Of a stretch of DNA of 64,000 nt, positions 4,700-47,100 are shown piece by piece (position 1 is the stretch's first letter; the number at the start of each line of letters is the position of its first letter). The stretch lies in the NCBI GenBank assembly GCA_029204225.1, contig CM055113.1, positions 29,350,303 to 29,414,302 on the forward strand. Direction: 5' to 3'. This stretch comes from Diphasiastrum complanatum. Taxonomy: Eukaryota > Streptophyta > Lycopodiopsida > Lycopodiales > Lycopodiaceae. The translations under genes were made by a program, and so were the position numbers. The notes under the pieces are model-generated. The model had not been told where the DNA came from. It saw nothing but the letters and a program-made list of their open reading frames with translations, and did not search any database.

Positions 4700-5508
4700 C
4701 ATTGCACCATGGGCTTATACGCGTAGGATGCCATGCCCTTGCAACACATTTTACTGACCGATATTATTTATTTACAATTTCTCGGGAATACCCCCAACAC
4801 CTTCATAGCAGAACGTGTTGCTTGTGCATCTGCTACGACCTCGTCTCGTTCGGCAGTAAGTTGTGTGATAACAGTCTGATGGTGGGAGATATTCATTTGG
4901 ATTTGGTTCTAGAGGTGGCTGAGCATTTGTTGTTGTTGTTGATTATAAGCAGTGAGGTTCCGGATCTGTTGCTGCTGTTGCTTGCTTTCCTCCTCCAACC
5001 TTACTTTTTCTTTCTAAAGATCTGCCATAATGCCATCGTCAAACTGCCTCATGGTATATTGGCCCCTAAGTTTCGAATAAGTTATATTAGGAGCTCATTT
5101 ACCAACCAAACCGCTTTTTGGGCTGTGAGGGATAGTTGCTCCCAAGGGCCAATATTAAGAACTATGCGGGTATAGTTGGGATATGGCATGGGATTAAATG
5201 GGAGAAAATCTGGAATTGGCAGAGAGCTTGGATTTTGAGAAAAGATAGGAAGTGGTGATTGAGGGATGAGAGGGGATGTTGGTGGGGGTGATTGTTGTAT
5301 GAGAGGTGGTGAATGTGGTGGTGACAGAATGCGTGTGGGGGATGTGTGGATCGGAGGAGTTGTGATGGTGGGGATGTAGTCTATGTTAATAATTGCAAAG
5401 CAAAATCATCTACATTGACTGCAGAGTCAAGTAGGGTGGAAGATTGTATAGGTGAGGACTTTGGTCGAATTGTGGAATCAAAGCCCATGTTGAGTGTGAA
5501 TGACGGGG
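4700..5508 (-). pseudogene. 3' part of a minus-strand Gypsy element (possible extra ORF)
   Basis: This is the left-hand remainder of the Gypsy element interrupted by Copia-A. On the minus strand a glutamine-rich, coiled-coil-like stretch (ESKQQQQQIRNL, about 4920-4990) is visible, and further right a segment reading PMPYPNYTRIVLNIGPWEQ. Frames are broken. Its place downstream of the integrase C-terminus suggests an additional 3' ORF, but I recognise no family. Continuity with 11595-12095 is supported by the exact target-site duplication at the Copia-A boundaries. Confidence 0.45.
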
Positions 5509-5513
5509 TGGAT
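5509..5513. repeat. Target-site duplication TGGAT, left copy of Copia-A
   Basis: TGGAT immediately precedes the 5' LTR and is repeated at 11590-11594 after the 3' LTR. A 5-bp duplication is the normal mark of Copia integration. Confidence 0.9.
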
Positions 5514-6194
5514 TGTTAAAAATTCACAATTCTAGCTTGACTAGTTTTGGTCATATGACTTGTAAATAGTTAGATGGTCATGATGTGGCTTGTCACACGT
5601 GCCAAATAGCATAGGATTCCATTCATAAGGATGTTCTCAAGTAGACCTAAGTGTTATAACCTTTGGAATGAGTCCAAATTATGCTTAGATACAAGGGAGA
5701 AAAAATAGGAGCTATTTTTGGTAATTTTTGCATTGTTGAGGGATCTCCAAGATTCCAACCCTAACTTGGTAGGGATGAAAGATCCACCAAAATTAGCATT
5801 AGGGATAGGTTTAGGGCTACTCATACCTGCCCAAAACCGTGATGGATCATGTATATATAGGTGATGATATCTCACCAAAATCAATCAAGCAATTTCATGT
5901 TTTTTCTCTCATAATGGTGCAATTGCTCTCTATGTTCATAATTGTTTGAGTACTTGTGATTACTAATGATTATAGGATTGAATGTAGGTCTAGTGTACAG
6001 TACTCAGACTTTGGGAGGCCGTACTTTCACACGTGTGAAGCCTTCTTCAAGGATTTGGGCCATTTAGTGAGGTTCAAGCATAGATTTTTGATGGATTTTG
6101 ATGGTTCACTTGTGCTAATCTTATGAAATCATAATATATTGTTTCCCTCATCATTTCAAGTGTTTTAGGATCCTTATTTGCTGTAATTTTTACA
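5514..6194 (+). repeat. Copia-A 5' LTR
   Basis: It begins TGTTAAAAATT and ends AATTTTTACA. A TATA-like TATATATAG lies near 5852, probably the Pol II start region. The palindrome TTCACACGTGTGAA is at 6026-6039 and a related CACACGTG at 5594-5601. Confidence 0.93.
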
Positions 6195-6207
6195 TCGTAT
6201 CAGAGCC
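6195..6207 (+). other. Primer binding site with one mismatch
   Basis: TCGTATCAGAGCC differs from the canonical TGGTATCAGAGCC at the second base. It abuts the LTR end. A mismatch near the primer 3' end could weaken priming, or may have arisen after insertion. Confidence 0.8.
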
Positions 6208-7005
6208 TAAAGGCTGAAATGAGCTAAATCCTTGGTTTTCATTCAATTCGATCACAATTTTTGATCTAAATCTTGTGTAGATTGGATCTTAGCATCTAGT
6301 ATTGATTCTAGAACTCAAAGTGAGTCAAATACATTGGAGATTGGTGTTGTGTGACTTCATTTTCAGGTGTTTAGGTGTCTAAAACCAGAGGCAAAGTTGA
6401 ATTCAATTCACATTACCAAGATAGCAAGTTTTGCTTGCTCCAAGCATTGATTTCTAAGCGAGTGTTGGAGGTAATTTCATAGAGGAGGCTTTCTAGCATT
6501 CAAGGAGAGGGAAGATCAGAGTTTTGGGGACTCTTCAAGGCTGTTCTAAGGTGTAGTAGGCACCTCCTAAAGTGATTTAGGTTCAGTCCAACCATTGCTT
6601 GACTTATGCACCAAATTAGATCAATTTTTCATCAATTTTGATCATTTTTTGCTTGTGATTGGATAGTAGATTGTGTTGCATCCTCATTAAGTTCCATTTA
6701 GATCTTTTACAAGTGATTTTGGAAGTATATTAGGTTGCTAAAATTCACTCTTGATCAAATCATTTGGAAGCTTTAATGTTCTTTATAGAAAGAGGGGCAA
6801 TTCTACTAGTATTGTCTACTTCAATCAAGCAAGTGCATTGTTTCTAGTATTCTATGATTTGATTTTGTTAGAGATCATTCTTAGATCTTTATAGGAAGTC
6901 TATTACTGATATTTTCAGGTCCCTAAGAAGTGGGATAAGGTAGACCTTCAATCAAATCAATAGAAGTAACCTTCATTTGTGTCAAGTCCTTGATTAGGAG
7001 ACTAG

Positions 7006-7962
7006 ATGGCATCTATAAATGCATATCTTTTGGATACTAATGAAAGGCTCAACAAAACTAACTATTCCATATGGAAAGTTAGAATGGAATCCATCATGAT
7101 CATGCAAGATCTGATGGAAATTGTAAATGGTAAGGAGGGTGAACCTATTCATCCTCAAGAAAAAGCCAAATACATCAAGAGGTGCAATGTTGCACTACAT
7201 TGCATAAAAATGAATGTTGCAAATGAACTCTTAAGAGAGGTAGGAGATTGCACTTCAGCTCAAGATGCTTGGGAGACTTTGCAAAAGTTCTATGAATCCA
7301 AGAACCAAACTAGAATGTTAGCTTTGAAGAATCAAATCTATAGAAGCTATCAAAAGAAAGGAGAGAGTGCACATACGTTTTTCCTAACAGTAAAGGAATT
7401 GAACAAAGAGCTAGCCTTTATAGGTGACCCTATCAAGGATGAAGAGCTTGTTCAACTCATATTGAATGGACTAAGCTTTGAGTTTGACAATTTGGTTCAG
7501 GGATATGCAATTATGGGTAAGCTACCCATACTTGAAGAACTTCAAGGCACACTCATGGCCGAGGAATCAAGAAGGAGCCAAATGCAAGAGAGGATGGATA
7601 GGCTTTCCATCAAAGGTGGAGATGACCAAGCTCTCTTCACCAAAGGCAAAGGCAAGTCCAAAGGCAAAGGATCAACATTCAAGAAGTCTACAAAGCTTGA
7701 GGATCAAGAAGGACCCTCAAAGGCATCTCCATCAACCACCAAAGTCAATAAGGACAAATCAAAGGTGAAGTGCTACTATTGTAGCAAGATGGGGCATTAT
7801 GCCTCGGAATGCTTCAAGAGGAAGCAAGATCAAAGCCAAGCCAACATGAGCAAAGAGGAGGAGGAGGAGGAGAGTTCACATGAGGACTCTCTCATGATGT
7901 CCATTTCTTCAACAAGCTTCAAAGGAGAAGATCCTTGGTGGATTGACTCGGGTGCTAGTTGA
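7006..7962 (+). CDS. Copia-A Gag with start of protease, cut by a deletion
   Basis: The 318-residue ORF encodes a Copia Gag: a capsid-like domain over about residues 10-200 (motifs NYSIWKVRMESI near residue 20 and LNGLSFEFDNLVQGY near 150), then a basic lysine-rich stretch and one zinc knuckle CYYCSKMGHYASEC (C-x2-C-x4-H-x4-C). It runs into the protease active site WIDSGAS and then stops. The ATG at 7006 is about 0.8 kb after the PBS. In Copia the same ORF normally continues into pol. Here about 25-30 residues after DSGAS are missing compared with the sibling copy on the minus strand at 52479-54188, and the reading frame changes at that point. Confidence 0.9.
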   Translation: MASINAYLLDTNERLNKTNYSIWKVRMESIMIMQDLMEIVNGKEGEPIHPQEKAKYIKRCNVALHCIKMNVANELLREVGDCTSAQDAWETLQKFYESKNQTRMLALKNQIYRSYQKKGESAHTFFLTVKELNKELAFIGDPIKDEELVQLILNGLSFEFDNLVQGYAIMGKLPILEELQGTLMAEESRRSQMQERMDRLSIKGGDDQALFTKGKGKSKGKGSTFKKSTKLEDQEGPSKASPSTTKVNKDKSKVKCYYCSKMGHYASECFKRKQDQSQANMSKEEEEEESSHEDSLMMSISSTSFKGEDPWWIDSGAS

Positions 7963-10894
7963 TGAAGCTTGTAAGATTGAAGGAGTTGGTAGAATTCCCC
8001 TTTGCTTAGGATCTTCCAAAAAGATCAACATAGAAGGTGTTTTGTACATTCCTACAATAACAAAGAATCTACTAAGTGTTGGCCAAATGGTAGACAATGG
8101 TTTCAATGTTGACTTTGCTTCAAATGAATGTTTCATCAAGAAGAAGGGTAAGATAGTGGCTAAGGGCACTAGACTTGGCAAACTTTATAAGTTGAATGCA
8201 TTTGTGGATACTAATGTTGTCATGTTGGCCGAGAAAAGCAAGATATCTACCTTTACTTTATGGCACAAAAGACTTGGACATGTCAACTCGGGTTCCATGG
8301 AGGCTATGATCAAGAAGGAGTATGCTTTAGGCCTACCAAGGTCTATTGGGAAGGAAGACAAGGTTTGTGAAGCTTGTGCCTTATCCAAGGCACATAAGAA
8401 GGTGTTTCCTAACTCCATCACAAAGTCATCTCATCCTCTTGAACTCATACACTCAGATGTGCACATTGCTAGCACCAAATCTAATGGAGGTTCATCCATG
8501 TTTTTAACCTTCATTGATGACTACTCAAGATATTGTTGGGTGTTCTTACTTTCCTTCAAGTCTCAAGTATTTGATACTTTTGTGAAGTTCAAGTTGTTTG
8601 TGGAAAAGCATCATAATCATAGCATCAAGATTCTTAGAAGTGACAATGGTGGAGAATTCATCTCCAATGAGTTCAAGGCCTTTTGTGAGGAGGAAGGGAT
8701 CAAGAAAGAGACTTCTTGTCCTTACAACCCTCAACAAAATGGAGTTGCTGAAAGAAGGAATAGAACATTATGTGATTGTTCTAAGGCTTTAAGATTAGAT
8801 GCTTGTTTGTCCAGATCCTTTTGGGGTGAGTCTCTTGTATGTGCAAACTACTTGATGAATAGGGTGTCTTGCAAAGCAATTGAAGGCAAAACTCCTTATG
8901 AGATGTTGTATGGAAAGAAACCCAATCTTAATCACTTGAAAGTTTTTGGGTGTATATGTTATGTGCATGTGCCATTGGAAACAAGAACCAAGGAGGATCC
9001 ATCTTCCACAAGAGGGATCATGCTTGGATATGCAAGCTCAAGCAAGGGCTACAAAGTCTATCTCCCATCCTTGAACAAATTTGTTGTTTCAAGGGATGTC
9101 ATCTTTGATGAACATCATATGCATATGCTTGAAGAAGGCTCAAGTGCTCCAACAATCAAGAAGAAGATGGCCGAGGAGCAAGATCTTGGTTTTGAGGAGG
9201 AGCTCATGGAGGAGCAAGCACCAAACCCACCTATCACACCAAGGAGATCTTCAAGGGCAAAAGTGGAGCCATCAAGGCTCACATATCAAGGCAAAGGACA
9301 GCAAGTTGAGGGTATCTCATCCACTTCTTATGCTTTATCTAGTTTTGAAGAACCGTCTAATGTTGAAGATGCATTCAACTCCAAAGAATGGTATAAAGCT
9401 ATGTTGGATGAGTATGATGCCTTGATTGAGAATGAAACTTGGTTGCTTGTTGAGAGACCTCAAAGGAATGTAATAGGATGCAAGTGGGTCTTCAAGCTTA
9501 AGTTGAATGCAAATGGGAGTGTTAACAAACATAAAGCAAGATTAGTTGCAAAAGGTTATGCTCAAGAGAGAGGGATAGACTATGAGGAAACTTTTGCACC
9601 CGTGGCCAAGATGGTCACAATAAGGCTAATCATTGCACTTGCATCACATTTTGGATGGATTCTATGTCAAATGGATGTCTCTAATGCTTTCTTGAATGGT
9701 TTTTTGGAAGAGGATATCTATATGGAGCAGCCACAAGGGTTCATCAAGCATGGAATGGAGAACAAAGTATGTCATCTCCAAAGAAGCATCTATGGCTTGA
9801 AGCAAGCCTCGAGATCTTGGAATTCAAGACTACATTGCTATCTTATTTCACTTTCTTTTGTTCAAAGTGAATATGATCCTACTCTTTACATTAAGTTTGA
9901 TGATGTTGGTATTGTACTTTTACTCATTTATGTAGATGACATCATCATTAGTGGAAATAGTGTTGATGGTATTGAAAAAATCAAGATAGATCTATCCTTA
10001 GAGTTCAAGATGGTAGATCTAGGGTGTCTTCACTTCATCTTAGGCATCGAAGTACTTAGAGGGTCTGATTTTATCTTTATAAGTCAAGTAAACTATGCTC
10101 AAAGTCTTTTGAAGAAGTTTAAGATGGAAGTATGCAAAAGTGTTGACACACCAATGGAGCAAGATGTAAAAGTGCCAAATGAAGATGATGAAAGATCCTT
10201 CATGGACATCACTTTGTTTAGGCAACTTATAGGTTCCTTAATGTGGATCACTATAACTAGACCAGATCTTAGCTTTAGTGTATGTAGGTTGAGCCAATCC
10301 ATGCAAAAGCCATTGAATATCCATTGGAAAAAGGCTAAGAGGATTCTAAGATACATCTCGGGTACATTGGATTTTGGGATTCTATATAGAGGAGATGTGA
10401 TTAACCTTCATGCATTTAGTGATTCAGATTTTGCAAGGGACAAGAGGGATAGGAAATCAACAAGTGCCTATTCAACTTTCATAGGAGAAGGTGTGGTTTC
10501 ATGGCTTTCAAAAAAGCAAGAAACTACATCTCTATCTTCAACCGAGGCCGAGTACAAAGCTTTGACAACCACTACAAAGGAGGTACTTTGGATCAAGAGA
10601 TTATTGGTGGAACTAAAGATCATGGATTCAGAGGAGGCACCAATCATCTACAATGACAATATATCAGCCCAACACCTTGCATCTAACCCAATCTTCCATG
10701 CAAGATCTAAGCACATTGAGATATGCCATCACTTTGTGAGAGAAATGGTGCAAGCCAAGGAGATTGCTTTGGAGCATGTTCCAAGCAATGAATGTGTAGC
10801 TGATATACTTACTAAACCACTTCAAAAGACACCTTTTATGAAGTTCAGATCATCACTTGGAGTGATTAGTAAAGCAATGATTGAACCAAGCTAG
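7943..10894 (+). CDS. Copia-A Pol: protease remainder, integrase, reverse transcriptase, RNase H
   Basis: A 983-residue uninterrupted frame. It starts in the protease C-terminal part (KIEGVGRIPL), so the ATG at 7943 is not the native start; the native product is a Gag-Pol polyprotein. GAG-pre-integrase follows (LWHKRLGHVNSGSM; CEAC), then the integrase core with DDE residues in HSDVH, RSDNGGEF and QNGVAERRNR. Reverse transcriptase has KARLVAKGYAQE and the active site YVDD. RNase H has SDSDFARD, SSTEAEYKAL and the end SKHIEICHHFVREMV. The stop at 10892-10894 precedes the polypurine tract. All catalytic residues outside the protease look intact, which is notable beside the frame break upstream. 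Confidence 0.93.
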   Translation: MTRVLVDEACKIEGVGRIPLCLGSSKKINIEGVLYIPTITKNLLSVGQMVDNGFNVDFASNECFIKKKGKIVAKGTRLGKLYKLNAFVDTNVVMLAEKSKISTFTLWHKRLGHVNSGSMEAMIKKEYALGLPRSIGKEDKVCEACALSKAHKKVFPNSITKSSHPLELIHSDVHIASTKSNGGSSMFLTFIDDYSRYCWVFLLSFKSQVFDTFVKFKLFVEKHHNHSIKILRSDNGGEFISNEFKAFCEEEGIKKETSCPYNPQQNGVAERRNRTLCDCSKALRLDACLSRSFWGESLVCANYLMNRVSCKAIEGKTPYEMLYGKKPNLNHLKVFGCICYVHVPLETRTKEDPSSTRGIMLGYASSSKGYKVYLPSLNKFVVSRDVIFDEHHMHMLEEGSSAPTIKKKMAEEQDLGFEEELMEEQAPNPPITPRRSSRAKVEPSRLTYQGKGQQVEGISSTSYALSSFEEPSNVEDAFNSKEWYKAMLDEYDALIENETWLLVERPQRNVIGCKWVFKLKLNANGSVNKHKARLVAKGYAQERGIDYEETFAPVAKMVTIRLIIALASHFGWILCQMDVSNAFLNGFLEEDIYMEQPQGFIKHGMENKVCHLQRSIYGLKQASRSWNSRLHCYLISLSFVQSEYDPTLYIKFDDVGIVLLLIYVDDIIISGNSVDGIEKIKIDLSLEFKMVDLGCLHFILGIEVLRGSDFIFISQVNYAQSLLKKFKMEVCKSVDTPMEQDVKVPNEDDERSFMDITLFRQLIGSLMWITITRPDLSFSVCRLSQSMQKPLNIHWKKAKRILRYISGTLDFGILYRGDVINLHAFSDSDFARDKRDRKSTSAYSTFIGEGVVSWLSKKQETTSLSSTEAEYKALTTTTKEVLWIKRLLVELKIMDSEEAPIIYNDNISAQHLASNPIFHARSKHIEICHHFVREMVQAKEIALEHVPSNECVADILTKPLQKTPFMKFRSSLGVISKAMIEPS

Positions 10895-10897
10895 ATA

Positions 10898-10908
10898 GTG
10901 AGGAGGAG
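10898..10908 (+). other. Polypurine tract of Copia-A
   Basis: The purine-rich AGTGAGGAGGAG immediately precedes the 3' LTR, the usual position for plus-strand DNA priming. Confidence 0.8.
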
Positions 10909-11589
10909 TGTTAAAAATTCACAATTCTAGCTTGACTAGTTTTGGTCATATGACTTGTAAATAGTTAGATGGTCATGATGTGGCTTGTCACACATGCCAA
11001 ATAGCATAGGATTCCATTCATAAGGATGTTCTCAAGTAGACCTAAGTGTTAGAACCTTTGGAATGAGTCCAAATTATGCTTAGATACAAGGGAGAAAAAA
11101 TAGGAGCTATTTTTGGTAATTTTGCATTGTTGAGGGATCTCCAAGATTCCAACCCTAACTTGGTAGGGATGAAAGATCCACCAAAATTAGAATTAGGGAT
11201 AGGTTTAGGGCTACTCATACCTGCCCAAAACCGTGATGGATCATGTATATATAGGTGATGATGTCTCACCAAAATCAATCAAGCAATTTCATGTTTTTTC
11301 TCTCATAATGGTGCAATTGCTCTCTATGTTCATAATTGTTTGAGTACTTGTGATTACTAATGATTATAGGATTGAATGTAGGTCTGGTGTACAGTACTCA
11401 GACTGTGGGAGGCCGTACTTTCACACGTGTGAAGCCTTCTTCAAGGATTTGGGCCATTTAGTGAGGTTCAAGCATAGATTTTTGATGGATTTTGATGGTT
11501 CAACTTGTGCTAATCTTATGAGATCATAATCTATTGTTTCCCTCATCATTTCAAGTGTTTTAGGATCCTTATTTGCTGTAATTTTTACA
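10909..11589 (+). repeat. Copia-A 3' LTR
   Basis: It has the same 681-bp length as the 5' LTR. Differences seen include CACACATGCC versus CACACGTGCC, GTTAG versus GTTAT, and two single-base indels. CACACGTGTG lies at 11422-11431. The right target-site duplication TGGAT follows at 11590-11594. Confidence 0.93.
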
Positions 11590-11594
11590 TGGAT

Positions 11595-34600: not shown

Positions 34601-34912
34601 TGGTCAAAATGTTTGCTTGCTAAATACAGGAACAATTTAGGATTCAAGAATTAATTTTTTGTGCTACCTCCTACTACCATCTCAAGGGAAGCTTGTAAAT
34701 GGTTCTCTATGGTTTAGTGAAGTAAAAGCTCAAGCAAATGGCTATAGGTAAGAGTGTGAAACTCTAGTAAACAGCTTATAAATTCTTATGGGGAAAATTT
34801 ATGCATGCTAGTTATTTGTCTATTCAGATTAGAATATTGAAGTTTTTCATTCCTATGTAAATAAGGATCATGAAATTCAAAGGGTAATCGATTTTCCATA
34901 ATTCAAGGTTGT

Positions 34913-34917
34913 GGTAG
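34913..34917. repeat. Target-site duplication GGTAG, left copy of the older LARD
   Basis: GGTAG immediately precedes the element and recurs at 42493-42497 after its other end. With 5 bp the chance match is not negligible, but it falls exactly on both TG and CA ends. Confidence 0.8.
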
Positions 34918-35911
34918 TGTTGTGCAAGCATCCCAAAGAGAGCCGGCAACCACGACTTAGCTTCTCAGCTTTCAACTCTTGGCGTCCGAACCCACTTGAC
35001 ATACAAGCAGCCAACTTGCCAACAACGATCAGACTTAACCAACTTAAAGTTCAGAAACCAACATTGAGATCCAACTTGGCGCCATGCCAGATCGAGAGTC
35101 CCGATGTGGGTGACTTCCCTCCAAGCAAGCCGCCTGACATACATCAAACTTAACTGGCTCGAAGCTTCGCTACAAACGAGTAACTTCCATTCCAAGCAAG
35201 TCGTCTACATTACATCAGACTTAACCAACTCAAAAGCTTCGTCACGAGAGCTTGGGACCATGCCAGACTGGAGAGCCATAAATAGGTAACTTCCACCCAA
35301 GCAAGCCATCCAACTCAGCCGACAGGTTAGAGCCCGTTCTCCAAGAGCTTAGGACCCATTCACGTTCATGCAAGGAACACTTAGAACCGCAAGCCGCGAC
35401 AGATATGAAGACAACCAATTCTTGGACCGAATGGTCCCGACAGCATACCGCTGGCATCTCGGACCGGATGGTCCTGACGACATACCGTGCATTTTAGGAT
35501 ACGACCCTCAGCTAAGTGCTAGATCAAAAAGATTTGAAGCAGCCTTACAACTGGCGCTTTTATCGAACACTGAAATGCAGAAGGTAATCAGAGTCAATTT
35601 GAGAATAATCCCACTTTATTAATAAATCTAAGAAGGTTACATTTCAAGTGTGTGATCGACCCTCGTCTCCAGGGCACTGGCATGCCAAGGTGGACGCCAT
35701 GACAATATTCTTGGTTGGAGCTCGCCCTGAGTCACAACCCCTATTCCCCTATAGTTTTGGTGGGATTCGCCACCTCTCCTCATAACAAGTGCTCTGGATA
35801 AGCTGGTAAAGCACATTTTCTCTCTCTAGAATTTTCTCTTTCTAGAATTTATTGATCCCCAGGCTTCCTTTAATCATGCCTAGATCGTGTGAGGTGATTG
35901 CACATTAGCTA
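34918..35911 (-). repeat. 3' LTR of the older LARD-like element, truncated
   Basis: In plus orientation it starts TGTTGTGCAAGCATCCC and is the reverse complement of most of the 36024-37268 LTR. It stops at GATTGCACATTAGC, so the GGCGCC-rich first part of the LTR is lost, and internal sequence follows directly. Confidence 0.85.
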
Positions 35912-36018
35912 AACGATTGGCAGCTATCATCGAATATGTCACACCGCACCCCACAAGGCACAGACCGTGCTTTCACCTACCTAGGCAGCACTTTGCCTCA
36001 TCTGTCCTTACGTGCAAA

Positions 36019-36023
36019 CAGCC
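36019..36023. repeat. Target-site duplication CAGCC, left copy of the young LARD
   Basis: CAGCC precedes the young element and follows it at 41106-41110. The host sequence on both sides is the older copy's internal region. Confidence 0.9.
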
Positions 36024-37268
36024 TGTTGTAAAGCTACCTTTACAAGCTTTACTTCGGGTGCCATTGGCGCCAGCTATGTCCCCGGCGCCAGCAGCGCCAC
36101 TGCTGCTCCCGGCGCCAACGGCGCCGGCGCCGCTCCCGGCGCCACTGTGACCAGAATCCAGCCGGCGCCAAGTTCCTATGGCTGAAAATCTTTGATCGGT
36201 TCTAGCGGAGTCCAGAGAGCTCAGATCGATGTGCAATCACCTCACACGATCTAGGCATGATTAAAGGAAGCCTGGGGATCAATAAAATCTAGAGAGAGAA
36301 AATGACTTTCTAGAAAGAGAAAATCCTAGAGAGAGAAAAACGTGCTTTACCAGCTTAGGTAGAGTGCTTGTTATGAGGGGAGGTGCCGAATCACACCAAT
36401 ACTATAGGGGAGTGCGGGTTGCGACTCAGGGCGAGCTCCAACCAAGTCTCAGCCTCCCTTGCTGGAATGTTGTCATGGCTCTCGCCTTGGCATGCTAGCG
36501 CCCCGGAGACTAGGGTCGGTCACACACTTGAAATGTAACCTTCTCAGATTTATCAATAAAGTGGGATTCTCCTTAAACTGACTCTGATTACCTTCTGGGT
36601 TTCAGTGTTCGGTAAAAGCGCCAGTTGTAAGGCCGCTTTCCAAATTTTTAATTTGGCACATAGCTGAGGGTCGTATCCCGGGACGCCAGCGGTATGCCGT
36701 CGGGACCATTCGGTCCGTGGCGCCAGCGGTATGCTGTCGGGACCATTTGGTCCAGGAACTGGTTGTTTCCATATCTGTCGCGGCTTGTGGTTCTGAGTGT
36801 TCCTTGCATGAACGTGAATGGGTTAAGCTCTTGGGGAACGGGCTCTAACCTGTCGGCTGAGTTGGATGGCTTGCTTGGGTGGATGTTACCTGTTTATGGC
36901 TGTCCAGTCTGGCGTGGCGCCAGGTTGGCTTCCAGCGCTCGTGACGAAGCTTTCAGTTGGTTAAGTCTGATGTAAGTCAGACCGCTTGCTTGGAATGGAT
37001 GTTACTCGTTTGTAACGAAGCTTCGAGTTGGTTAAGTTTGATGTATGTCGGGCGGCTTGCTTGGAGGGAAGTCACCCACATCGGGACCCCCAATCTGGCA
37101 TGGCGCCAGGTTGGATCTCAATGTTGGTTTTCGGAACTTCATGTTGGTTAAGTCTGATCGTTGTTGGCGAGTTGGCTGCTTGTATGTCAAGTGGGTTTGG
37201 ATGGCAAGAGTTGAAGGCTGGGAAGCTAAGTCGTGGTTCCCGGCTCCCTTTGGGATGCCTGCGCTACA
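36024..37268 (+). repeat. Young LARD 5' LTR (1245 bp)
   Basis: It begins TGTTGTAAAGC and ends GCGCTACA. The first 150 bp holds seven GGCGCC palindromes. A purine run of AGAGAGAAAA copies lies near 36290-36340, and an AATAAA signal near 36555. Short frames inside (for example 36694-36975) also occur in the right LTR only because the LTRs are identical; they are not supported as genes. Confidence 0.93.
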
Positions 37269-37270
37269 TG

Positions 37271-37283
37271 TGGTATCAGAGCC
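37271..37283 (+). other. Primer binding site of the young LARD
   Basis: TGGTATCAGAGCC, a perfect Met-tRNA type PBS, lies two bases after the LTR. The older copy keeps the same 2-base spacer. Confidence 0.9.
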
Positions 37284-37358
37284 GACTGGCCGGTCAGCTA
37301 TGCGGATCTCACGGAAATGGCCACGGTTTGGGGTTCATCAAGACAACTGTTGTGCAAG

Positions 37359-37744
37359 GTGCTGCCCACAGTGTAAGCACGGGTGCGTCCACGGTCGGGG
37401 TGGTCGGCAGAACGGGGGACTTGATGAGTCAAAGTGCTGCCCTTGAGGTGTAAGCACGGTCAGTTCTCGCGGTTCGGGCCTGGCGCTGTCTGCACGTAGG
37501 ACGGATGAGGCAAAGTGCTGCCTAGGGAGGTGAAAGCACGGTCTGTACCTTGTGGGGTGCGGGGCGACATATTCGAACTGTACGGGTTAACCATTGATAC
37601 AGAGATGCTGCTCGAATTCGGGTGTAAAGCACGGGTGGTTAGCTGCCGGTGCGGGATAGCTGCCGATCGTTTAGCTATAAGGGCTATCGACCAAAAAGTG
37701 GTGGGGCGTGACTGAGGCAATGTGCTGCTTAATGGTGAAAGCAC
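37359..37744 (+). repeat. Array of five stem-loop motifs in the LARD leader
   Basis: The motif GTGCTGCC...GTGTAAGCACGG occurs with stems GTGCT/AGCAC at 37359-37380, 37434-37457, 37515-37539, 37615-37632 (ATGCT on the left arm) and 37722-37744. Starts are 75-107 bp apart and the intervening DNA is unrelated. The conserved flank is AAAGTGCTGC and AAGCACGG. Position just after the PBS would suit RNA packaging or dimerisation, but this is inference. Confidence 0.7.
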
Positions 37745-38020
37745 GGATAGTTGGAGGGGTGTCCTATGTGGGCTGATTCCGTGATCGATTTGTATGGGCG
37801 CGGCCAGGCAAAGGTCCGTTGGCAGGACCATCTCAAAGGGGGACCTTGTCTTTGTTACTTGTTAGTAAACCTGCCTGAGTGTCTTACTTGTACGTATTCG
37901 TGGTGAGTCTTAGTACTCGTGCTTTGCCTGGTTTGCATGATTGCTTGTGATACAAGGAGCTGATGGCTCGAGAAGGAACCTTTTCTTTTGAAGGCTGATA
38001 CCATCAAACAAAGAGGACTA

Positions 38021-38522
38021 CAGAATCTGTGGGGCGGATTTGCAGTTCAAGTACTCACACGTGAACGACAACGAAACGACTCAATGTTTGCAAAGGATGG
38101 ATGGCTAGCCTGTTTCTTAGGTTAGTTTCATTTGCGACAACGCCCACCAGACGCAAGCAGGAAGTCAAAAGTTGGAAAGGGCCATTTCAGAGGAGATCTT
38201 CTATGGAGCAGTTGGTCTTCATTTTGGGACGGCCACCTTCGGAACTGAAACTCACTGAGCATGAGCGATATCCAGAATCTGTGCGGCGGATTTGCAGTTC
38301 AAGTACTCGCACGTGAACGACAACGAAATGACTCAACGTTTGCAAAGGATGGATGGCTAGCCTGTTTCTTGGGTTAGTTTCATTTGCGACAACGCCCACC
38401 AGACGCAAGCAGGAAGTCAAAAGTTGGAAAGGGCAATTTCAGGGGAGATCTTCTATAGCAGTTGGTCTTCATTTTGGGACGGCCACCTTCGGAACTGAAA
38501 CTCACTGAGCATGGGTGATATC
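38021..38522 (+). repeat. Tandem duplication of about 252 bp in the LARD interior
   Basis: Copy 1 is 38021-38272 and copy 2 is 38273-38522, each starting CAGAATCTGTG(G/C)GGCGG. They differ at a handful of bases, including a 2-base gap. A third partial start follows at 38523 (CAGTATCAGT). Confidence 0.85.
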
Positions 38523-38927
38523 CAGTATCAGTTGGGTTTTTCCTCAAAGGGGAAAAGACTAGGATCCTCTTCAGAGATTGGCAACAAGTTGGATCGAGCC
38601 ATAATCCTAGCATATGGGAAGCAAAGTGTTGGAAAGGCTTTTTGTCCGAAGAACTCTACTCTAAGTCCGATCAGCTGATTTATTAAGTGGAGGGGAACTA
38701 TCACACACACCTCTCTCTTGGGGCAAATTTTGAATGAAAGTTGATCAAAATGGGGGCAAATTCAAGGTGACCTAGCCATACTCACACGAGGAGACTGGCG
38801 AACTTTGGACCTAATAAGTTGACAAGTTTTTGTTGTGGAAAGGAAAGTTTGTTATAGGCTTTCTCTGGACCAGCAATGATGAGGAAACATATGAGTACGC
38901 TGGCTTGTGTTATGTGTAAGGCAGCTG

Positions 38928-39300
38928 ATCAATGAACGAACTGTGAAAGTTGAGTCTTGCATGAGAGACTTGGTATTTCGAACGGACGCTAAGGGATAGT
39001 TCGCGTTGAGATCGGACTAGTGCAAACTCTGGGTGCATGTGTCTGAATCAAAGAGAGCTACTTGAAGCCAAGCTCGATGTACACTTCTTGTTTTTGAATG
39101 TGAGGCAACTGTCCAGTGATGGAATTGTGAAAGTCAAGTTTTGCGCGACGGACATGGTGCTTCAAACAAACGCGAAGAGATAGTTCGGATGCGGATCAAA
39201 CTGGTGCGACCCTTTGGCTTTCCACGAGGTCAATGGTTACATTTGGGCTGATTCAAAGAGCTACTTCAAGCTAAGTGAGAGGTGCATTGCGGAGTACTCA
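38928..39300 (+). repeat. Diverged tandem repeat of about 190 bp in the LARD interior
   Basis: Two units share GAA(C/T)TGTGAAAGT, then GGTATTTCGAACGGACGC versus GGTGCTTCAAACAAACGC, GATAGTTCG, and the AAAGAG(A)GCTACTT(G/C)AAGC block. They are much more diverged than the 252-bp duplication, so they are older. Confidence 0.6.
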
Positions 39301-39750
39301 ATCTTTGCCTACCTTAAAGAGCCAAGATGGAAAAGTATCAAGATCAGGCTGGGACAAGGAGAGAAATCAAGGTGCAGAAGCAACAAGGCACGGAGTGGAC
39401 CAATAAGTGGGCAATCAAACGATAAATCCTTCGGCTCAGGGAGCCTTGATACCTGTGCGGAACCCGAACAAATCTGGAGCTCAGGGAGCTCAACACAAAG
39501 TGCATCAAGGACAAATCAGGAGCTCAAGGGAGTTCCAAAGTCGAAAGTCAGAAGCGACAGGGGCAAACATTTCAAAGAAAGGCCTCTGTCACCAGTTAAT
39601 AAGGCTCTCGGGTTTTACGAAAGCGATATCAAATCTACGCTTTTCCCAGACAAAGATATTTGTTTCAAGTTATGTAATTTTTCAGTACAAAGAGCTGAGC
39701 CTCCGACTTGTGGTGTGCCAGCTTCAATGTTAATAAAAAGTGGCCAGTAA
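39214..39750 (+). CDS. Hypothetical 178-residue frame in the LARD interior
   Basis: This is the longest frame in the interior. It is basic and S/K/R-rich in the middle, with no zinc knuckle, catalytic motif or membrane segment. Its first third overlaps the 190-bp repeat. I do not recognise it. It may be chance, a relic, or a product specific to the element; only comparison of several copies could tell. Confidence 0.2.
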   Translation: MAFHEVNGYIWADSKSYFKLSERCIAEYSIFAYLKEPRWKSIKIRLGQGEKSRCRSNKARSGPISGQSNDKSFGSGSLDTCAEPEQIWSSGSSTQSASRTNQELKGVPKSKVRSDRGKHFKERPLSPVNKALGFYESDIKSTLFPDKDICFKLCNFSVQRAEPPTCGVPASMLIKSGQ

Positions 39751-39845
39751 ATTGAGTACTGTGCCAAGTAGCATAAATGTATAGTCATTTTAATTGGGAG
39801 ACACCTTTACTTTAATCTGACATCTGATGAGGACATCAGATTTTA

Positions 39846-39860
39846 TAAAGGTGGGGTGGA
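39846..39860 (+). other. Polypurine tract of the young LARD
   Basis: TAAAGGTGGGGTGGA directly precedes the right LTR. Confidence 0.75.
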
Positions 39861-41105
39861 TGTTGTAAAGCTACCTTTACAAGCTTTACTTCGGGTGCCA
39901 TTGGCGCCAGCTATGTCCCCGGCGCCAGCAGCGCCACTGCTGCTCCCGGCGCCAACGGCGCCGGCGCCGCTCCCGGCGCCACTGTGACCAGAATCCAGCC
40001 GGCGCCAAGTTCCTATGGCTGAAAATCTTTGATCGGTTCTAGCGGAGTCCAGAGAGCTCAGATCGATGTGCAATCACCTCACACGATCTAGGCATGATTA
40101 AAGGAAGCCTGGGGATCAATAAAATCTAGAGAGAGAAAATGACTTTCTAGAAAGAGAAAATCCTAGAGAGAGAAAAACGTGCTTTACCAGCTTAGGTAGA
40201 GTGCTTGTTATGAGGGGAGGTGCCGAATCACACCAATACTATAGGGGAGTGCGGGTTGCGACTCAGGGCGAGCTCCAACCAAGTCTCAGCCTCCCTTGCT
40301 GGAATGTTGTCATGGCTCTCGCCTTGGCATGCTAGCGCCCCGGAGACTAGGGTCGGTCACACACTTGAAATGTAACCTTCTCAGATTTATCAATAAAGTG
40401 GGATTCTCCTTAAACTGACTCTGATTACCTTCTGGGTTTCAGTGTTCGGTAAAAGCGCCAGTTGTAAGGCCGCTTTCCAAATTTTTAATTTGGCACATAG
40501 CTGAGGGTCGTATCCCGGGACGCCAGCGGTATGCCGTCGGGACCATTCGGTCCGTGGCGCCAGCGGTATGCTGTCGGGACCATTTGGTCCAGGAACTGGT
40601 TGTTTCCATATCTGTCGCGGCTTGTGGTTCTGAGTGTTCCTTGCATGAACGTGAATGGGTTAAGCTCTTGGGGAACGGGCTCTAACCTGTCGGCTGAGTT
40701 GGATGGCTTGCTTGGGTGGATGTTACCTGTTTATGGCTGTCCAGTCTGGCGTGGCGCCAGGTTGGCTTCCAGCGCTCGTGACGAAGCTTTCAGTTGGTTA
40801 AGTCTGATGTAAGTCAGACCGCTTGCTTGGAATGGATGTTACTCGTTTGTAACGAAGCTTCGAGTTGGTTAAGTTTGATGTATGTCGGGCGGCTTGCTTG
40901 GAGGGAAGTCACCCACATCGGGACCCCCAATCTGGCATGGCGCCAGGTTGGATCTCAATGTTGGTTTTCGGAACTTCATGTTGGTTAAGTCTGATCGTTG
41001 TTGGCGAGTTGGCTGCTTGTATGTCAAGTGGGTTTGGATGGCAAGAGTTGAAGGCTGGGAAGCTAAGTCGTGGTTCCCGGCTCCCTTTGGGATGCCTGCG
41101 CTACA
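39861..41105 (+). repeat. Young LARD 3' LTR (1245 bp)
   Basis: Same length and, line by line, the same sequence as 36024-37268. The CAGCC duplication follows. Confidence 0.93.
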
Positions 41106-41325
41106 CAGCCCCAGGCCTGAACCGCGAGATTTGACAGTGCTTACACCACAAGGGCAGCACCTTGACTCATCAAGTCCTACGTTCTGCCGACCACCCCGAC
41201 CGTGGACGCACCCATGCTTACATTGTGGACAGCACATTGCACAACAGTTGTCGTGATGAACCCCAAACAATGGCCATTTCTGTGAGATCTGCATTGTTGA
41301 CCGGCCAGTCGGCTCTGATACCACA

Positions 41326-42492
41326 TGCTGCGTAGGCATCTCAAAGGGAGCCGGGAACCACTACTTAGCTTCTCGACTTTCAACTCTTGTTGTCCGAACC
41401 CACTTGACATACAAGCAGCCAACTCGCCAACAACGATAAGACTTAGCCAACTTAAAGTTCGGAAACCAAAACTGAGATCCAACGTGGCACCATGCCAGAT
41501 CGGGGTCCCGATGTGGGTGACTTCTCTCCAAGCAAGCCGCCCGACATACATCAAACTTAACTAACTCAAAGCTTTGTTACAAACGAGTAAAAAAAGCAAG
41601 TCATCTGACTTAACCAACTCAAAAACTTCGTCACGAGCGTTGGAAGCCAACCCGGCACCGCGTCAGACTGGAGAGCCATAAACATGTAACTTCCACCCAA
41701 GCAAGTCATCCAACTCAGCCGACAAGTTAGAGCCCGTTCCCCAAGACCTTAACCCATTCACGTTCATGCAAAGAACACTCAGAACCACAAGCCGCGACAA
41801 ATATGAAGACAACCAGTTCCTGGACCGAATGGTCCCGACAACATACCACTGGCGTCCTAGACTGAATGGTCCTGACAACATACTGTTGGCGTTTCGGGAT
41901 ACGACCCTCAGCTAAGTGCCAGATCAAAAAGATTTGAAGCAGCCTTACAACTAGCGCTTTTATCGAACACTGAAACGTAGAAGGTAATCAGAATCAATTT
42001 GAGAATAATCCCACTTTATTAATAAATCTGAGAAGGTTACATTTCAAGTGTGTGACCGACCTTAGTCTCTTGGGCACTGGCATGCGAAGGTGGGCGCCAG
42101 GACAATATTCCAGCAAGGGAAACTGAGACTTGGTTGGAGCTCGCCCTGAGTCACAACCCGCATTCCGCTATAGTTTTGGTGGGATTCATCAACTCCCCTC
42201 ATACCAAGTGCTCTGCATAAGTTGGTAAAGCATGTTTTCTCTCTCTAGAAAGTCATTTCTCTCTCTAGAATTTATTGATCCCCAGGCTTCCTTTATTCAT
42301 GCCTAGATCGTGTGAGGTGATTGCACATCGATCCGAGCTCTCTTGTCTTTGCTAAAACCGATCAAAAGTTTTTAGCCATAGGAACTTGGTGCGACTGGAT
42401 TCTGGTCACGGTGGCGCCGGGAGCAGCAGTGGCGCTGCTGGCGCCAGTGGCGCCGGAAGTAAAGATTGCATTGTAAAGCTAGCTTTACAACA
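41326..42492 (-). repeat. 5' LTR of the older LARD-like element
   Basis: It is a reverse-complement copy of the family LTR, about 1167 bp, diverged and with small deletions (one near 41590). It ends CTTTACAACA, the inverted start of the LTR. The GGCGCC cluster is reduced to a few sites near 42413-42455. Confidence 0.88.
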
Positions 42493-42497
42493 GGTAG

Positions 42498-44136
42498 TTC
42501 ATATTGAAGTAGCAATTCATGCGAGTTCATCTTGACATGTGGGACAATATACCATATTGTATAAATTGAGGGCAAAACATTTTTGCATTCATGATAATTA
42601 CAGATGTGAGAAGGTTAACTAGATAGTCGTCATCATTGATTATCTTTCATGAACAACTCATTATTTTAGTGATATGCACCTATGTGTAGCTGGAGAACGC
42701 AAACATTACTACGTGGGACAGAAGTCTCATTCTGTAGTTTCATGTTAGTTATAGCAGGATATTGGAAGTAAACTTACATGAGGGTTTATGAACAGAAAGA
42801 AAAGTTTATGACCATAGAAGTCATGTAAAATTATGATTGGAGGTTATTAGAATTTACTCTTTGAGTCTAGATTTTTTTCTTTTGATAATGGGGAATGGGT
42901 TTTTCATTAAAAGAAATTTGAGTAAAGGTTTGCTGTGGGTTGTGGAGATGGATAACTTGTCCAAAATATGTGTAAAGGTGGTTGGATCTGAAACTCCAAG
43001 CCGACCCTACTGGTTATCAATGATAGCTATTTCAACCGATTTAACACATCAAACTGTGCCCAACTTCCAGATCTATGAAGATTACTAATTGATTGATTGA
43101 TTGAGTGAGTAATCTATGAAGATTACTAATTGATTGATTGAGTGAGTGAGTGAGTATCCATGAGATGTGTGAAGATGACTTGGAGACTAGTTTGCTAAAT
43201 GGTCTCCTGATCATCAGATAAGGCTCGTATATGACACCTGTTATAGATCACGAGTCACGCTGGTTTTACTCTATTTATTTAGACAATGGACACAAATTGT
43301 AGACACTCTCTTGTTTACGATCCATATTATGGTTTTGTTGAACAGGAGTTCGCTGGCCTGTTTTACAGAAGGCTTTTGCTTCTCCTAGCATTTTTGGCTG
43401 AGATAGATTTTTATTGTTTAACTTTTGAGTTTTGGCCCATCCAAAGTCATCATCCAGCTTGCTACTGCATCTTGAAGCTTAGCTTCATCATGTAAGGTTT
43501 TATGTTGATCATTGATCAACAGAGAAGAGTGTGAAGCGCATGCTGTGGGGTGTTGTTTAAGGTACATGTTGAAAATCTATTGAAAATAGAGCCAAAGAGA
43601 GGCACGGTGATAGCAGTGAAAAATGAGAAAATAACAGTACCTCCTGCATCAGGGGGAGTTAGGGAGACAACGTTTCTTGGCAGGCATCGTAACCAGAAAA
43701 AAAATTGATCAAACTACTATCAAATATGAAAAATACCTTTTGAAAATAGAGCATCATTTGTTTTTCATTTTTAGTACAGGCTAGTCGTATTATGGGCGTC
43801 AATAAGTTTAGTAGGTGAACATTTCTCAGAGTTAATTAGCAAAGCTCTCATACAGCTTTGCAGAATCCTGAAAACTTGAAGCATAGTTCAGTTGAGGAAA
43901 AAACTATCGCTGGCCATTAGTTATACAAGGAGTCGATCAATTTTCTAGATATAGAAGTATGCTGATCTTGAATCTCTTCTTTACAACGTTTTAGCCTGCA
44001 TTGGTCATCTTCCAGCATAAGTCGAGGTACGAGTTTGCGGCTACTGAAAAGCTTGTTATCTTATAGCTCCAGTTGAACTAGGATTTCCCATTACCTTGTT
44101 TTCTAGCAGTAAGTCTATTTTCCTATCGCCATCAAA
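42498..44136. other. Low-repeat DNA upstream of the invertase
   Basis: No transposon motif was recognised. A two-unit tandem repeat lies at 43071-43155 (units of 41 and 44 bp, ATCTATGAAGATTACTAATT then GATT and GAGT runs). The promoter and 5' UTR of the invertase must lie here, but I cannot point to a convincing TATA box. Confidence 0.5.
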
Positions 44137-47100
44137 ATGGCACCCGTGATCATCAGTTTTGTAAGCGACATGGAAAGACAGAATTGCAGAGTGGCTGAAA
44201 ATGAGGCAGGAAAGGTTCTTGAGGATGAAGGATATTATGTACAAATACCTGACAAGAAAGCTGATTACGCAGAGTTTGAAAATCCGGAGTTTAGAAGCCT
44301 AGGCAATTGCATCAGATTTCGCTCCATATTCCTCACAGCAATCTGCATTGCGTTGATAATGTGCCTCTCACTTTTAATATGTTTATCCCAACCTGGTTTA
44401 GCACCTTCGAAAAGTGTCAAAGATACGGCGTGGAGCAAGCAATCGGCTAGCAAATTCCTTATGCCTTCTATAATTAAAGGAGAAAGCCTTCCAAGCTTTG
44501 CAGATGAGCGAACATCATTTCATTTCCAACCTGAGAGGAATTGGATGAACGGTACGCCTTCTCAAGTGACTTCACGTAGCTGTACGCTCTAATGAACTCT
44601 TTCTCAACTACTTCTCGTCTCCAGTATAAACATTCATTTATCTGAGGACAATGTTTAGCGTGCTATTGTTATTAGCAATAGCGTTTATGTAGATCGTTTG
44701 AACTACGAAATCCAAGCCTGTGCAGATCGATTCCATAGGCTCTAGCGTGATACTTTATGAAGAACTTTTCTTGCTAGTAAATGTCATCTGTAAATTTGAT
44801 TAAAACTCCAGCTTTTCAACATTGGCATGGCAGGCATCCGAATTCAAGCAAAACTACCTACCAGGTCGGCCTAAATTTGCTTACGTTTTAAAACATGTGT
44901 GAGCTCTAAATTTATCTCTGGTATCATACGCCTATTTTGTGGTCAAGACCATAATCAGTGACCAACGTTCTTTGAGTAAAAACTAAAAAATCAATTTTGC
45001 AGAGTTATGTCTGCTTGAGACTAGATTTCCACCTATGACAACATCTACATGCCGATTTAGCTGTGATATATACACAAACATTGACAGGTTTTTCAATGAC
45101 TGCGCCTTAATTAGGGAAAAGCCAATCTGTTGTCCGGTTGCGTAGCCTGACAACATTCATGCCATAGCCATAACGAAAGGGAAACTTTAAATTCAAGTCT
45201 GTTCAAATTGATCTCATAAATTCCTGCTTGGTACTTTTATGCAGACTTTTTGATGTAGGCTTCATCTGTAACGACAGATTCCAAAAGACATGTATACTGA
45301 ATATACTTTTCAAAAACTATGGCAATTCTCTCGTTCTTCTGCACTATTGTTGTTCTAAAAATCAGCTAATCCTACAACAATGAACTCAATTTGCTGTAAA
45401 AACTGCTTTTTCTCCCAGCAAATTGTAAAAATGAGATAAAAAAAAACGTTTCTTTTTCGTTCCGCCAGATTTTTTTGTCAAAATTGACGTTCGTTCCGGA
45501 ATTCCATTCGCGTTCCAGAACCGTGATGTTTCTATGATTTGGAATGAGTATGCAGTCTTTTGAAGTTCAGTAGAAATTGAAAACGCTTCTGACAGATTTT
45601 GTCTTTCTTCCTAATGATTGCGCTGGTGGATGGTGCGGATGCTGAGCGGTTCCAGATCCAAATGGTTTGTTGCACTTCTAATCTAATATTCCTTTCATGC
45701 TTTTCAGTTTAGCATGAGACTCTGGGAGTGATCTAAATTGGAGCAGAATATTTCTCAAAATTAAGTGCTACTTATGAATGGGTATTATGCTTTTTCTCTA
45801 ATCTTAATAATTGAGTCTTGACACCTATCCTGTCGTGCACAGTCTTTGTGTTTCCAGAAGTAGTAACATTTGATTAATGGCACTGTCAGGACCTATGTTC
45901 TACAAGGGGTACTATCATTTTTTCTACCAGTACAATCCAGATGCTGCAGTCTGGGGTAATATCACTTGGGGCCATTCTGTGTCCACAGATTTGATCCACT
46001 GGCACCATTTAGAGTTAGCGCTGGTTCCAGATCAATGGTATGATGTAGAAGGTGTGTGGTCAGGTTCTGCCACCATATTGCCTGATGGCAAGCCGGTTAT
46101 TCTTTATACAGGTTCATCAAATGAGTCACTACAATCACAAAACAAGGCTGTTCCTGAGGATTTATCTGACCCTCTGCTTCGGAAATGGGTGAAGGTCTCA
46201 CAGAATCCAATGTTGGTCCCTCCTCCAGGTATTGGGCACACGGACTTCAGAGATCCAACAACTGCATGGTTGGAATCAGATGGGTTATGGCGAATCGCAA
46301 TTGGCGCTAAGGAGGGCACTACAGGCCTTGCTTTAGTTTACAAAACTTCTGACTTCCTTAACTGGACTTTACAGAGGAGCTTTCTACATCAGATAGCTGG
46401 CACAGGAATGTGGGAATGTGTAGATTTTTATCCTGTTTCTCTTACTGGTACAAATGGCTTGGATACATCTAAAGTCCAAGGCAACCAGTTAGTGAAGCAC
46501 GTTTTGAAGGCAAGCTTGGGTAGTAATAAGCACGACTATTACACCATAGGGACTTACTCAACAGATTTGAAAACCTTTGTAGCGGACGATCCAACTAGAG
46601 ATGTTGGGCTTGGTCTGCGTTACGATTATGGAAAGTTCTATGCGTCCAAGACATTTTATGATCCTGCTCAGGAACGACGCATCTTATGGGGCTGGGCTAA
46701 TGAATCTGATAGTCAGCTGGACGACATCAAAAAAGGCTGGGCATCTGTGCAGGTATACAAATCTTACCCTTTGGATTCAACAGCTCATTGTTAAAGAAGT
46801 AATTTTGGTCTAGATTGTCTTGTATTCAGCTAGCTACATGTGAATCTACCTCTGGTAACTACATGCATTGTTACTATTTTCTGATGGTTGAATGTTTACT
46901 GGTCTAGACAATTCCTAGAACTTTGGTCCTTGACCACCACACTGGTTCGAACCTATTGCAATGGCCAATTTCTGAATTGGACTCATTACGAGGTGACAAG
47001 GTAGTAAAACAGGACATATTGCTTGATGGAGGAGCTATGTTAAAAGTAGATGGAGCTTCAGGGGCTCAGGTACACTTAACTTTTCTAAACAGTAGAATGC

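Follow-up and report, generated by a model that had tools for sequence, protein, structure and literature searches.

The non-coding long terminal repeat (LTR) retrotransposon at positions 36024–41105 of a 64,000-nucleotide stretch of Diphasiastrum complanatum DNA (assembly GCA_029204225.1, contig CM055113.1, 29,350,303 to 29,414,302; hereafter the window) is probably the third member of a split element system. Its coding relatives are of two kinds, G, which would supply Gag, and P, which would supply the enzymes, while the LTR of the non-coding element (N) would itself draw integration. G and P are the most likely protein sources because no other coding elements with the shared leader were found, and what the one lacks the other has. 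That N moved in trans is close to certain, judging from its structure and youth. Insertions of family copies into N LTRs are in strong excess and are concentrated at one 5-bp site.

The window element has an interior of 2,592 bp between LTRs with TG...CA ends, giving 5,082 bp in total (Table 1). A first-pass annotation had described a young element with two indistinguishable 1245-bp LTRs, a perfect primer-binding site (PBS), a purine tract and a CAGCC duplication, and all of these were found again. The PBS, TGGTATCAGAGCC, is one which we take to be of initiator Met tRNA type. The same annotation held that the interior encodes no retroelement protein and named gag-pol homology as one observation that would speak against its account; no such homology was found. 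A coding interior was ruled out by six-frame Pfam searches and by tblastn with the protein pieces of the partner elements, both empty at E ≤ 1, and the longest stop-to-stop frame is 188 amino acids. A known RNA family was likewise ruled out for 34900–42500, where Rfam gave no match at E ≤ 1. Within the N interior, a 34-bp motif at 39688–39721 is 91% identical to a U3 stretch of the G and P LTRs, as if the LTR border had moved.

The N family is young and large in the 1,744,706,496-base assembly that contains the window. The best 40 of 2,205 LTR candidates are all full length at 99–100% identity, and the best 40 of 2,533 interior matches all stand at 98–100%, with 38 of them spanning 37800–39860 completely. 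N copies are spread across many contigs. A 26-base LTR motif has 7,453 genome matches at ≤2 mismatches, whereas its reversed control has none; with 1,245 bp counted for every match, such LTRs amount to ~0.53% of the genome, to which older or interrupted copies would add. Two sets of copies were read. Set 1 comprises 21 loci (the window and L009–L028, from the best 40 of 2,205 LTR matches), including one solo LTR (L015) and one locus fetched with only ~0.5 kb of flank (L009). A perfect 5-bp duplication is present at 20 of these loci, the exception being L021, in which the 5′ end is rearranged, and the target duplications mostly differ between elements. The LTR pairs compared, from 17 of the 21 loci, total 4 substitutions over 21,165 bases, 0–1 per pair (the pair of L022 also has 18 gap columns), in a sample biased toward young copies since it was chosen by likeness to the window LTR. 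The recent mobility proposed in the first-pass annotation is thereby upheld, and in place of the old, fragmentary copies that it would have counted against itself, the copies are young and full length.

Set 2 consists of 25 flank stretches for 25 of the 40 best interior matches, 24 of them 3′ flanks and one (L114) a 5′ flank. Ten of the other matches were already in set 1, and five that were tandem, partial or adjacent to loci of the sets were left out. Among these five, C7:34666628 is inserted in an N LTR but does not enter the count of nested copies below. Some copies show unusual structures. L009 (1–10000) and L011 (1–9981) are LTR-interior-LTR-interior-LTR tandems of near-identical units with one outer 5-bp duplication. 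In L021 (1212–5697) both unit ends resemble U5 ends, with an inverted LTR piece in place of the 5′ LTR; the unit is inserted near LTR 380–384 and may represent aberrant or self-integrated cDNA. At L010, L020 and L021, N or host copies carry extra leader hairpin repeats (interior 353–478 repeated), unlike the leader of the window element.

The partner elements were recognised where young N copies had inserted into protein-coding relatives, L018 into P and L027 into G. In the P copy of L018/L029, a leader ~90% identical to that of N is followed directly by protease (RVP_2), RVT_1, RNase H, H2C2 and rve domains, and the LTR has tips and a core-promoter block like those of N. A second P copy, on contig C11, provides the 3′ end, with the integrase C-terminus, a Chromo domain (E 2.3e-10), a polypurine tract (PPT) and a complete 918-bp LTR. 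The order reverse transcriptase, RNase H, integrase, chromodomain extends across two P copies, L029 (RVT_1, RT_RNaseH_2, H2C2, rve) and L155 (SH3_Tf2-1, Chromo); by this predicted domain order and the C-terminal chromodomain, P is of the Ty3/Gypsy chromovirus type. Among eight further pol copies followed upstream, six run from leader to protease without gag, L118 among them with a 193-bp gap, and gag is thus absent from all seven pol copies with a readable leader (L018 and these six). In L119 an LTR stands where gag would have to be, with the last 700 bp of the interval outside the stretch read, and appears too close to leave room for gag; L121 gave no match upstream.

The G element that hosts L027 consists of gag and protease followed by ~380 bp, a PPT and the LTR, and lacks pol. 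Its reading frame is called gag because of weak domain matches, a CCHC motif and its position before the protease. Followed downstream, every one of the 11 gag copies arrives at an LTR with no pol on the way, three of them at 93–95% identity to the query and one, on C6, through a deletion; for seven, reading started 900 bases past gag, and the LTR begins at the expected distance. The best 40 of 1,181 gag matches and the best 40 of 1,271 pol matches never co-locate, the closest on one contig being 213,865 bp apart. Of the 40 gag matches, 25 share one score (2315, 99%), and G has therefore been recently active. The stretch L151 1–3500 holds a G copy followed by an LTR, a leader and gag again, forming a G tandem. 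The autonomous partner that the first-pass annotation had proposed to look for was thus encountered in part: elements sharing the LTR ends, PBS and leader do exist, but as two complementary types rather than as one autonomous element.

N, G and P have in common the LTR tips, a 44-bp promoter-like block, the PBS and a hairpin-bearing leader, and it is from these shared cis signals that mobilisation in trans, also a claim of the first-pass annotation, draws its support. The block, which contains ACTATAGGGG, is a putative core promoter. The PBS is identical in G_L149, P_L018, the other N copies and the outer host element of the window copy, with one change each in P_L116 and P_L120. The leader is present in two of three G copies read (L149 and L151; L150 is without it), and that of the L018 partner also has five copies of the hairpin motif, for which a role as packaging signal is a candidate function. 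A further hairpin, CTGATGAGGACATCAG, stands directly before the PPT in N and G; the P sequence can be aligned at this place with 84% identity.

An alignment of the leaders, which took in one G and four P copies, revealed a mosaic. Between N and G only 3 of 393 positions differ in a central block (99.2% identical), against 14 of 82 in the part that precedes it and 12 of 72 in the part that follows (~83% identical), whereas the G and P leaders are alike throughout (95.9–98.8%). The simplest reading suggests that N and a G-like RNA recently exchanged sequence, which would be expected if both were packaged together. Alternatively, the central block may be under strong selection, yet P differs from N there by 3.6–4.8%.

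The second line of evidence concerns where copies insert. In set 1, eight of the 21 loci lie in N LTRs (L010, L011, L016, L017, L020, L021, L024 and L028), three others (the window, L018 and L027) within relatives, and ten in neither. Set 2 was picked by interior similarity, a criterion on which LTR neighbours have no bearing; ten of its 23 scorable copies (L097 lies inside a tandem and L113 is without an LTR end) are in N LTRs, one (L099) is in a G/P leader and twelve are in neither. Joined, 18 of 44 N copies are in N LTRs against 0.23 expected, ~77 times the LTR share (P ~1e-29, which ignores that nested copies are not fully independent), and with a fourfold larger N-LTR share P is still ~5e-19. 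Those counted as nested include L107, with a lost LTR tip, L021, with its rearranged 5′ end, and the G copy L134, with an altered last LTR base; the LTR of L112, at first placed nearest the outer-type LTR but 99.5% identical to the N LTR, was counted as N. G copies behave similarly, 4 of 12 adjoining N LTRs (P ~4e-7) and none a G/P LTR, while one of six P copies (L144, its tip lost) adjoins an N LTR. Sixty random 600-base windows (600 bases of them the letter N) gave no match to N except short shared blocks in one G/P LTR, L087.

Within the N LTR the insertions are unevenly placed. Thirty events were located, including older nested copies, four G events and one G/P event (L119), with L144 left out. 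Eight have their duplication at LTR 496–500 and two more lie at most 4 bases away, and a single event falls in the first 379 bases (P 0.00025). L092 and L106 were tallied at site 493; on rereading, their duplication would be 492–496. When events were placed uniformly in 200,000 simulations, no LTR site reached more than four. Insertions at LTR 496–500 run in both orientations and include one G copy besides N copies. Sequence preference of the integrase alone was rejected as the cause, the weak consensus (G/C at the duplication ends) ranking position 496 at the 98.5th percentile, with others higher.

Several observations weigh against the split system and its landing site. The gag matches in G lie below curated cut-offs (Retrotrans_gag E 0.023, Ty3_capsid 0.035, zf-CCHC 0.14), Arc capsid chains match weakly as well (E 0.033–0.048), and at E ≤ 0.01 no gag match was obtained in G. 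The pol matches listed (best 40 of 1,271) stand at 95–97% to the query, except at the query's own place and in one copy at 100%; P is therefore less uniform than G and may be older. Copies also lie outside N LTRs, in 26 of 44 cases for N, 8 of 12 for G and 5 of 6 for P. For set 2 and the G copies a single flank was read, and target duplications are confirmed in set 1 alone. In addition, the failure of gag and pol to co-locate is drawn from the best 40 of 1,181 and of 1,271 matches, which an autonomous relative could escape.

This last point leads to the most serious rival explanation, in which N is an ordinary large retrotransposon derivative (LARD) of a still autonomous Ty3/Gypsy chromovirus, and G and P are further deletion derivatives of that unseen element. 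Non-autonomous elements of the LARD, TR-GAG and BARE-2 types have each been described (PMC10025401), and the G and P proteases, only 42–43% identical, may each stem from a different complete ancestor. Against it stand the 11 gag copies that all lack pol, those at 93–95% included, the seven leader-readable pol copies that all lack gag, and the separation of the best gag and pol matches. Such an origin is therefore considered unlikely.

Also unlikely is that the insertions into N LTRs stem from a chromatin compartment common to the copies, or from a burst within a niche dense in repeats, rather than from targeting of the LTR. P carries a chromodomain, a domain tied to chromatin marks in chromoviruses (PMC3605345), and some copies cluster (C22:26.46–26.60 Mb), so that events are not fully independent. 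However, N copies are scattered over many contigs, and a compartment accounts poorly for events stacked at one 5-bp site in both orientations and nearly missing from the first 379 bp. Moreover, despite more than 1,100 gag and more than 1,100 pol candidates, G/P LTRs account for just one of the 44 N copies, L018, and G/P leaders for just one, L099. A control with the young Copia LTR family of the window showed no self-flanking in the 40 LTRs taken from the best of 414 candidates, although a family of 414 against 2,205 candidates is not matched in abundance and has a lower chance expectation, which limits the case for a landing site.

A quite improbable account takes the hotspot junctions as a single nested insertion multiplied by duplication or gene conversion. 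The same-strand junction has 69 genome matches at ≤2 mismatches (reversed control 0), a count that covers only the same strand and LTR 496–500 and so again limits the case for a landing site. The junction sequence is identical in 45 of the 69, two pairs on C3 have nearly equal spacing (~202 bases), and single mismatches are common to two C19 places, to C479/C1472 and to C18/C3116; some matches thus resemble duplicates, and 69 is an upper number of events. On the other side, the matches lie on many contigs, and six host LTR segments, four at 496–500 and two at the adjacent site, differ pairwise by 0.9–8.6%, the insertions occur in both orientations, and the site was entered by G as well as by N. 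It is very improbable that an assembly error or gene conversion made the LTRs identical in an element that is not young: a single assembly is the source, but 17 elements have 0–1 substitution per LTR pair with mostly different target duplications, and the two LTRs of the host element, also in this window, show 94 differences over 966 aligned bases.

The split system thus remains the preferred explanation, and its working may be pictured as follows. The window holds a recently inserted, non-coding copy, which would belong to a split Ty3/Gypsy chromovirus-type system and have an RNA bearing the shared leader and its hairpins, the PBS, the pre-PPT hairpin and the LTR tips. Gag from G elements, which encode gag and protease only, would package this RNA, and the P enzymes (protease, reverse transcriptase, RNase H, integrase and chromodomain, without gag) would copy and integrate it. 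Integration would be drawn to the N LTR, mainly downstream of the putative core promoter and with one preferred 5-bp site, so that the LTR serves as landing site for N and G copies. As the cause, a factor near the transcription start or a tether between Gag and nascent RNA is favoured, since a chromodomain alone would predict a chromatin compartment and not one 5-bp site in one LTR type. A stronger form of the proposal is possible but doubtful: the split may be obligate, with no family member holding both gag and pol, with G (coat), P (enzymes) and N (a non-coding satellite) as separate RNAs joined by one hairpin leader, and with the N LTR as a dedicated landing pad that the integration complex of the family recognises, for instance via Gag held on nascent leader RNA or via a factor bound near the transcription start.

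Each component resembles a known kind of element. Terminal-repeat retrotransposons in miniature (TRIMs) have very short LTRs and interiors of a few hundred bp, while the original LARDs have LTRs of several kb and a total size well above that of TRIMs. N was rejected as a TRIM on its LTR of 1,245 bp and total of 5,082 bp. The LARD-like assignment of the first-pass annotation stands as to structure, N having the LTR pair, PBS, PPT, target duplication and a non-coding interior conserved between copies, but in size N falls below the original LARDs. The likeness lies in LTRs, PBS and PPT around a conserved non-coding interior and in presumed mobilisation in trans (Kalendar, 2004, as summarised in PMC10025401); N differs by its 1.2-kb LTRs, 2.6-kb interior, split coding partners and strong insertion into its own LTR. 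Terminal-repeat retrotransposons with a GAG domain (TR-GAG) resemble G in their terminal repeats, gag-protease and lack of pol (Chaparro, 2015, as summarised in PMC10025401). G has gag, by weak matches, and LTRs, with no pol in 11 of 11 copies; it differs in being found beside a gag-less pol element with the same leader. BARE-2 is a Copia element dependent on BARE-1. P is comparable in having pol without Gag in L018 and six of eight further copies ("Life without gag"; Tanskanen, 2007, as summarised in PMC10025401), but it departs from Copia order and BARE descent, being of Ty3/Gypsy order with a chromodomain, and the sole Gag source found is itself pol-less.

Autoinsertion is known in some plant LTR retrotransposon families, where the 3′ untranslated region is reported as preferred and LTRs as not commonly targeted (Jedlicka, 2019; PMC6911290), unlike the N family, in which insertions go to the LTR and gather at one 5-bp hotspot. 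Athila of Arabidopsis likewise includes many non-autonomous elements and recombination between families; the abstract of that study mentions neither a gag/pol split nor a landing-site LTR (Marco and Marin, 2008; PMC2410132). Recently active Retand elements without some domains have been reported (PMC11963269), and chromodomains have been linked to target choice (PMC3605345). The combination of split gag and pol with self-targeting was not found in the open-licence literature, judged by titles and abstract openings. LARD, TR-GAG, BARE-2-like elements and autoinsertion are thus each known, and what appears new is the trio of split elements together with a landing site in an LTR.

The window copy of N sits in the leader of an older, related element on the minus strand, a point absent from the first-pass annotation. 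The interior of this host has been lost, and its target duplication GGTAG is at 42493–42497 and 34913–34917. Approximately 3.4 kb beyond the nest, at 45874–46791, lies an exon with a GH32 N-terminal domain (E 1e-87) of an invertase-type gene. A Copia element at 5507–11590 has 690-bp LTRs that are 98% identical, and its LTR family is young, the best 40 of 414 candidates being at 99–100%. It was rejected as a partner of N, as nothing in the window outside the nest matches N over more than 80 bp at E ≤ 1e-10.

Table 1. Features of the N element and of its older host element, in window positions.
Feature	Position	Strand	Remarks
3′ LTR of host element, truncated	34918..35905	-	without first 205 bp
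Host element leader, second part	35930..36018	-	92% to N leader
Target-site duplication CAGCC, left	36019..36023	.	matches right copy
5′ LTR of N	36024..37268	+	1245 bp, identical to 39861–41105
44-bp block with ACTATAGGGG	36375..36417	+	kept in G/P LTRs, 81–84% identity
Insertion hotspot GTCAC (LTR 496–500), 5′ LTR	36519..36523	.	empty here; 8/30 insertion events
Leader common to N, G and P	37269..37817	+	~87–92% identical overall; central block 99.2% to G
PBS TGGTATCAGAGCC	37271..37283	+	after 2-nt spacer
GUGCU...AGCAC-type hairpin motif, five copies	37359..37746	+	TGCTGC starts 37360, 37435, 37516, 37606, 37723
Imperfect 252-bp tandem duplication, N interior	38021..38532	+	95% identity
Pre-PPT hairpin CTGATGAGGACATCAG	39824..39839	+	read from sequence
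PPT AAAGGTGGGGTGGA	39847..39860	+	read from sequence
3′ LTR of N	39861..41105	+	1245 bp, 0 differences vs 5′ LTR
Same GTCAC hotspot, 3′ LTR	40356..40360	.	empty
Target-site duplication CAGCC, right	41106..41110	.	matches left copy
Host element leader, first part, split by N	41106..41325	-	91% to N leader
5′ LTR of host element	41326..42492	-	85–86% identical to N LTR

The system would constitute a naturally occurring retrotransposon of several components, which allows coat, enzymes and cis signals to be investigated separately and the choice of integration site to be read at base level. An obligate split would bear on the persistence of parasites of parasites. Should the N LTR indeed be a landing site, it would illustrate how a family of elements can direct its new copies to places other than genes.

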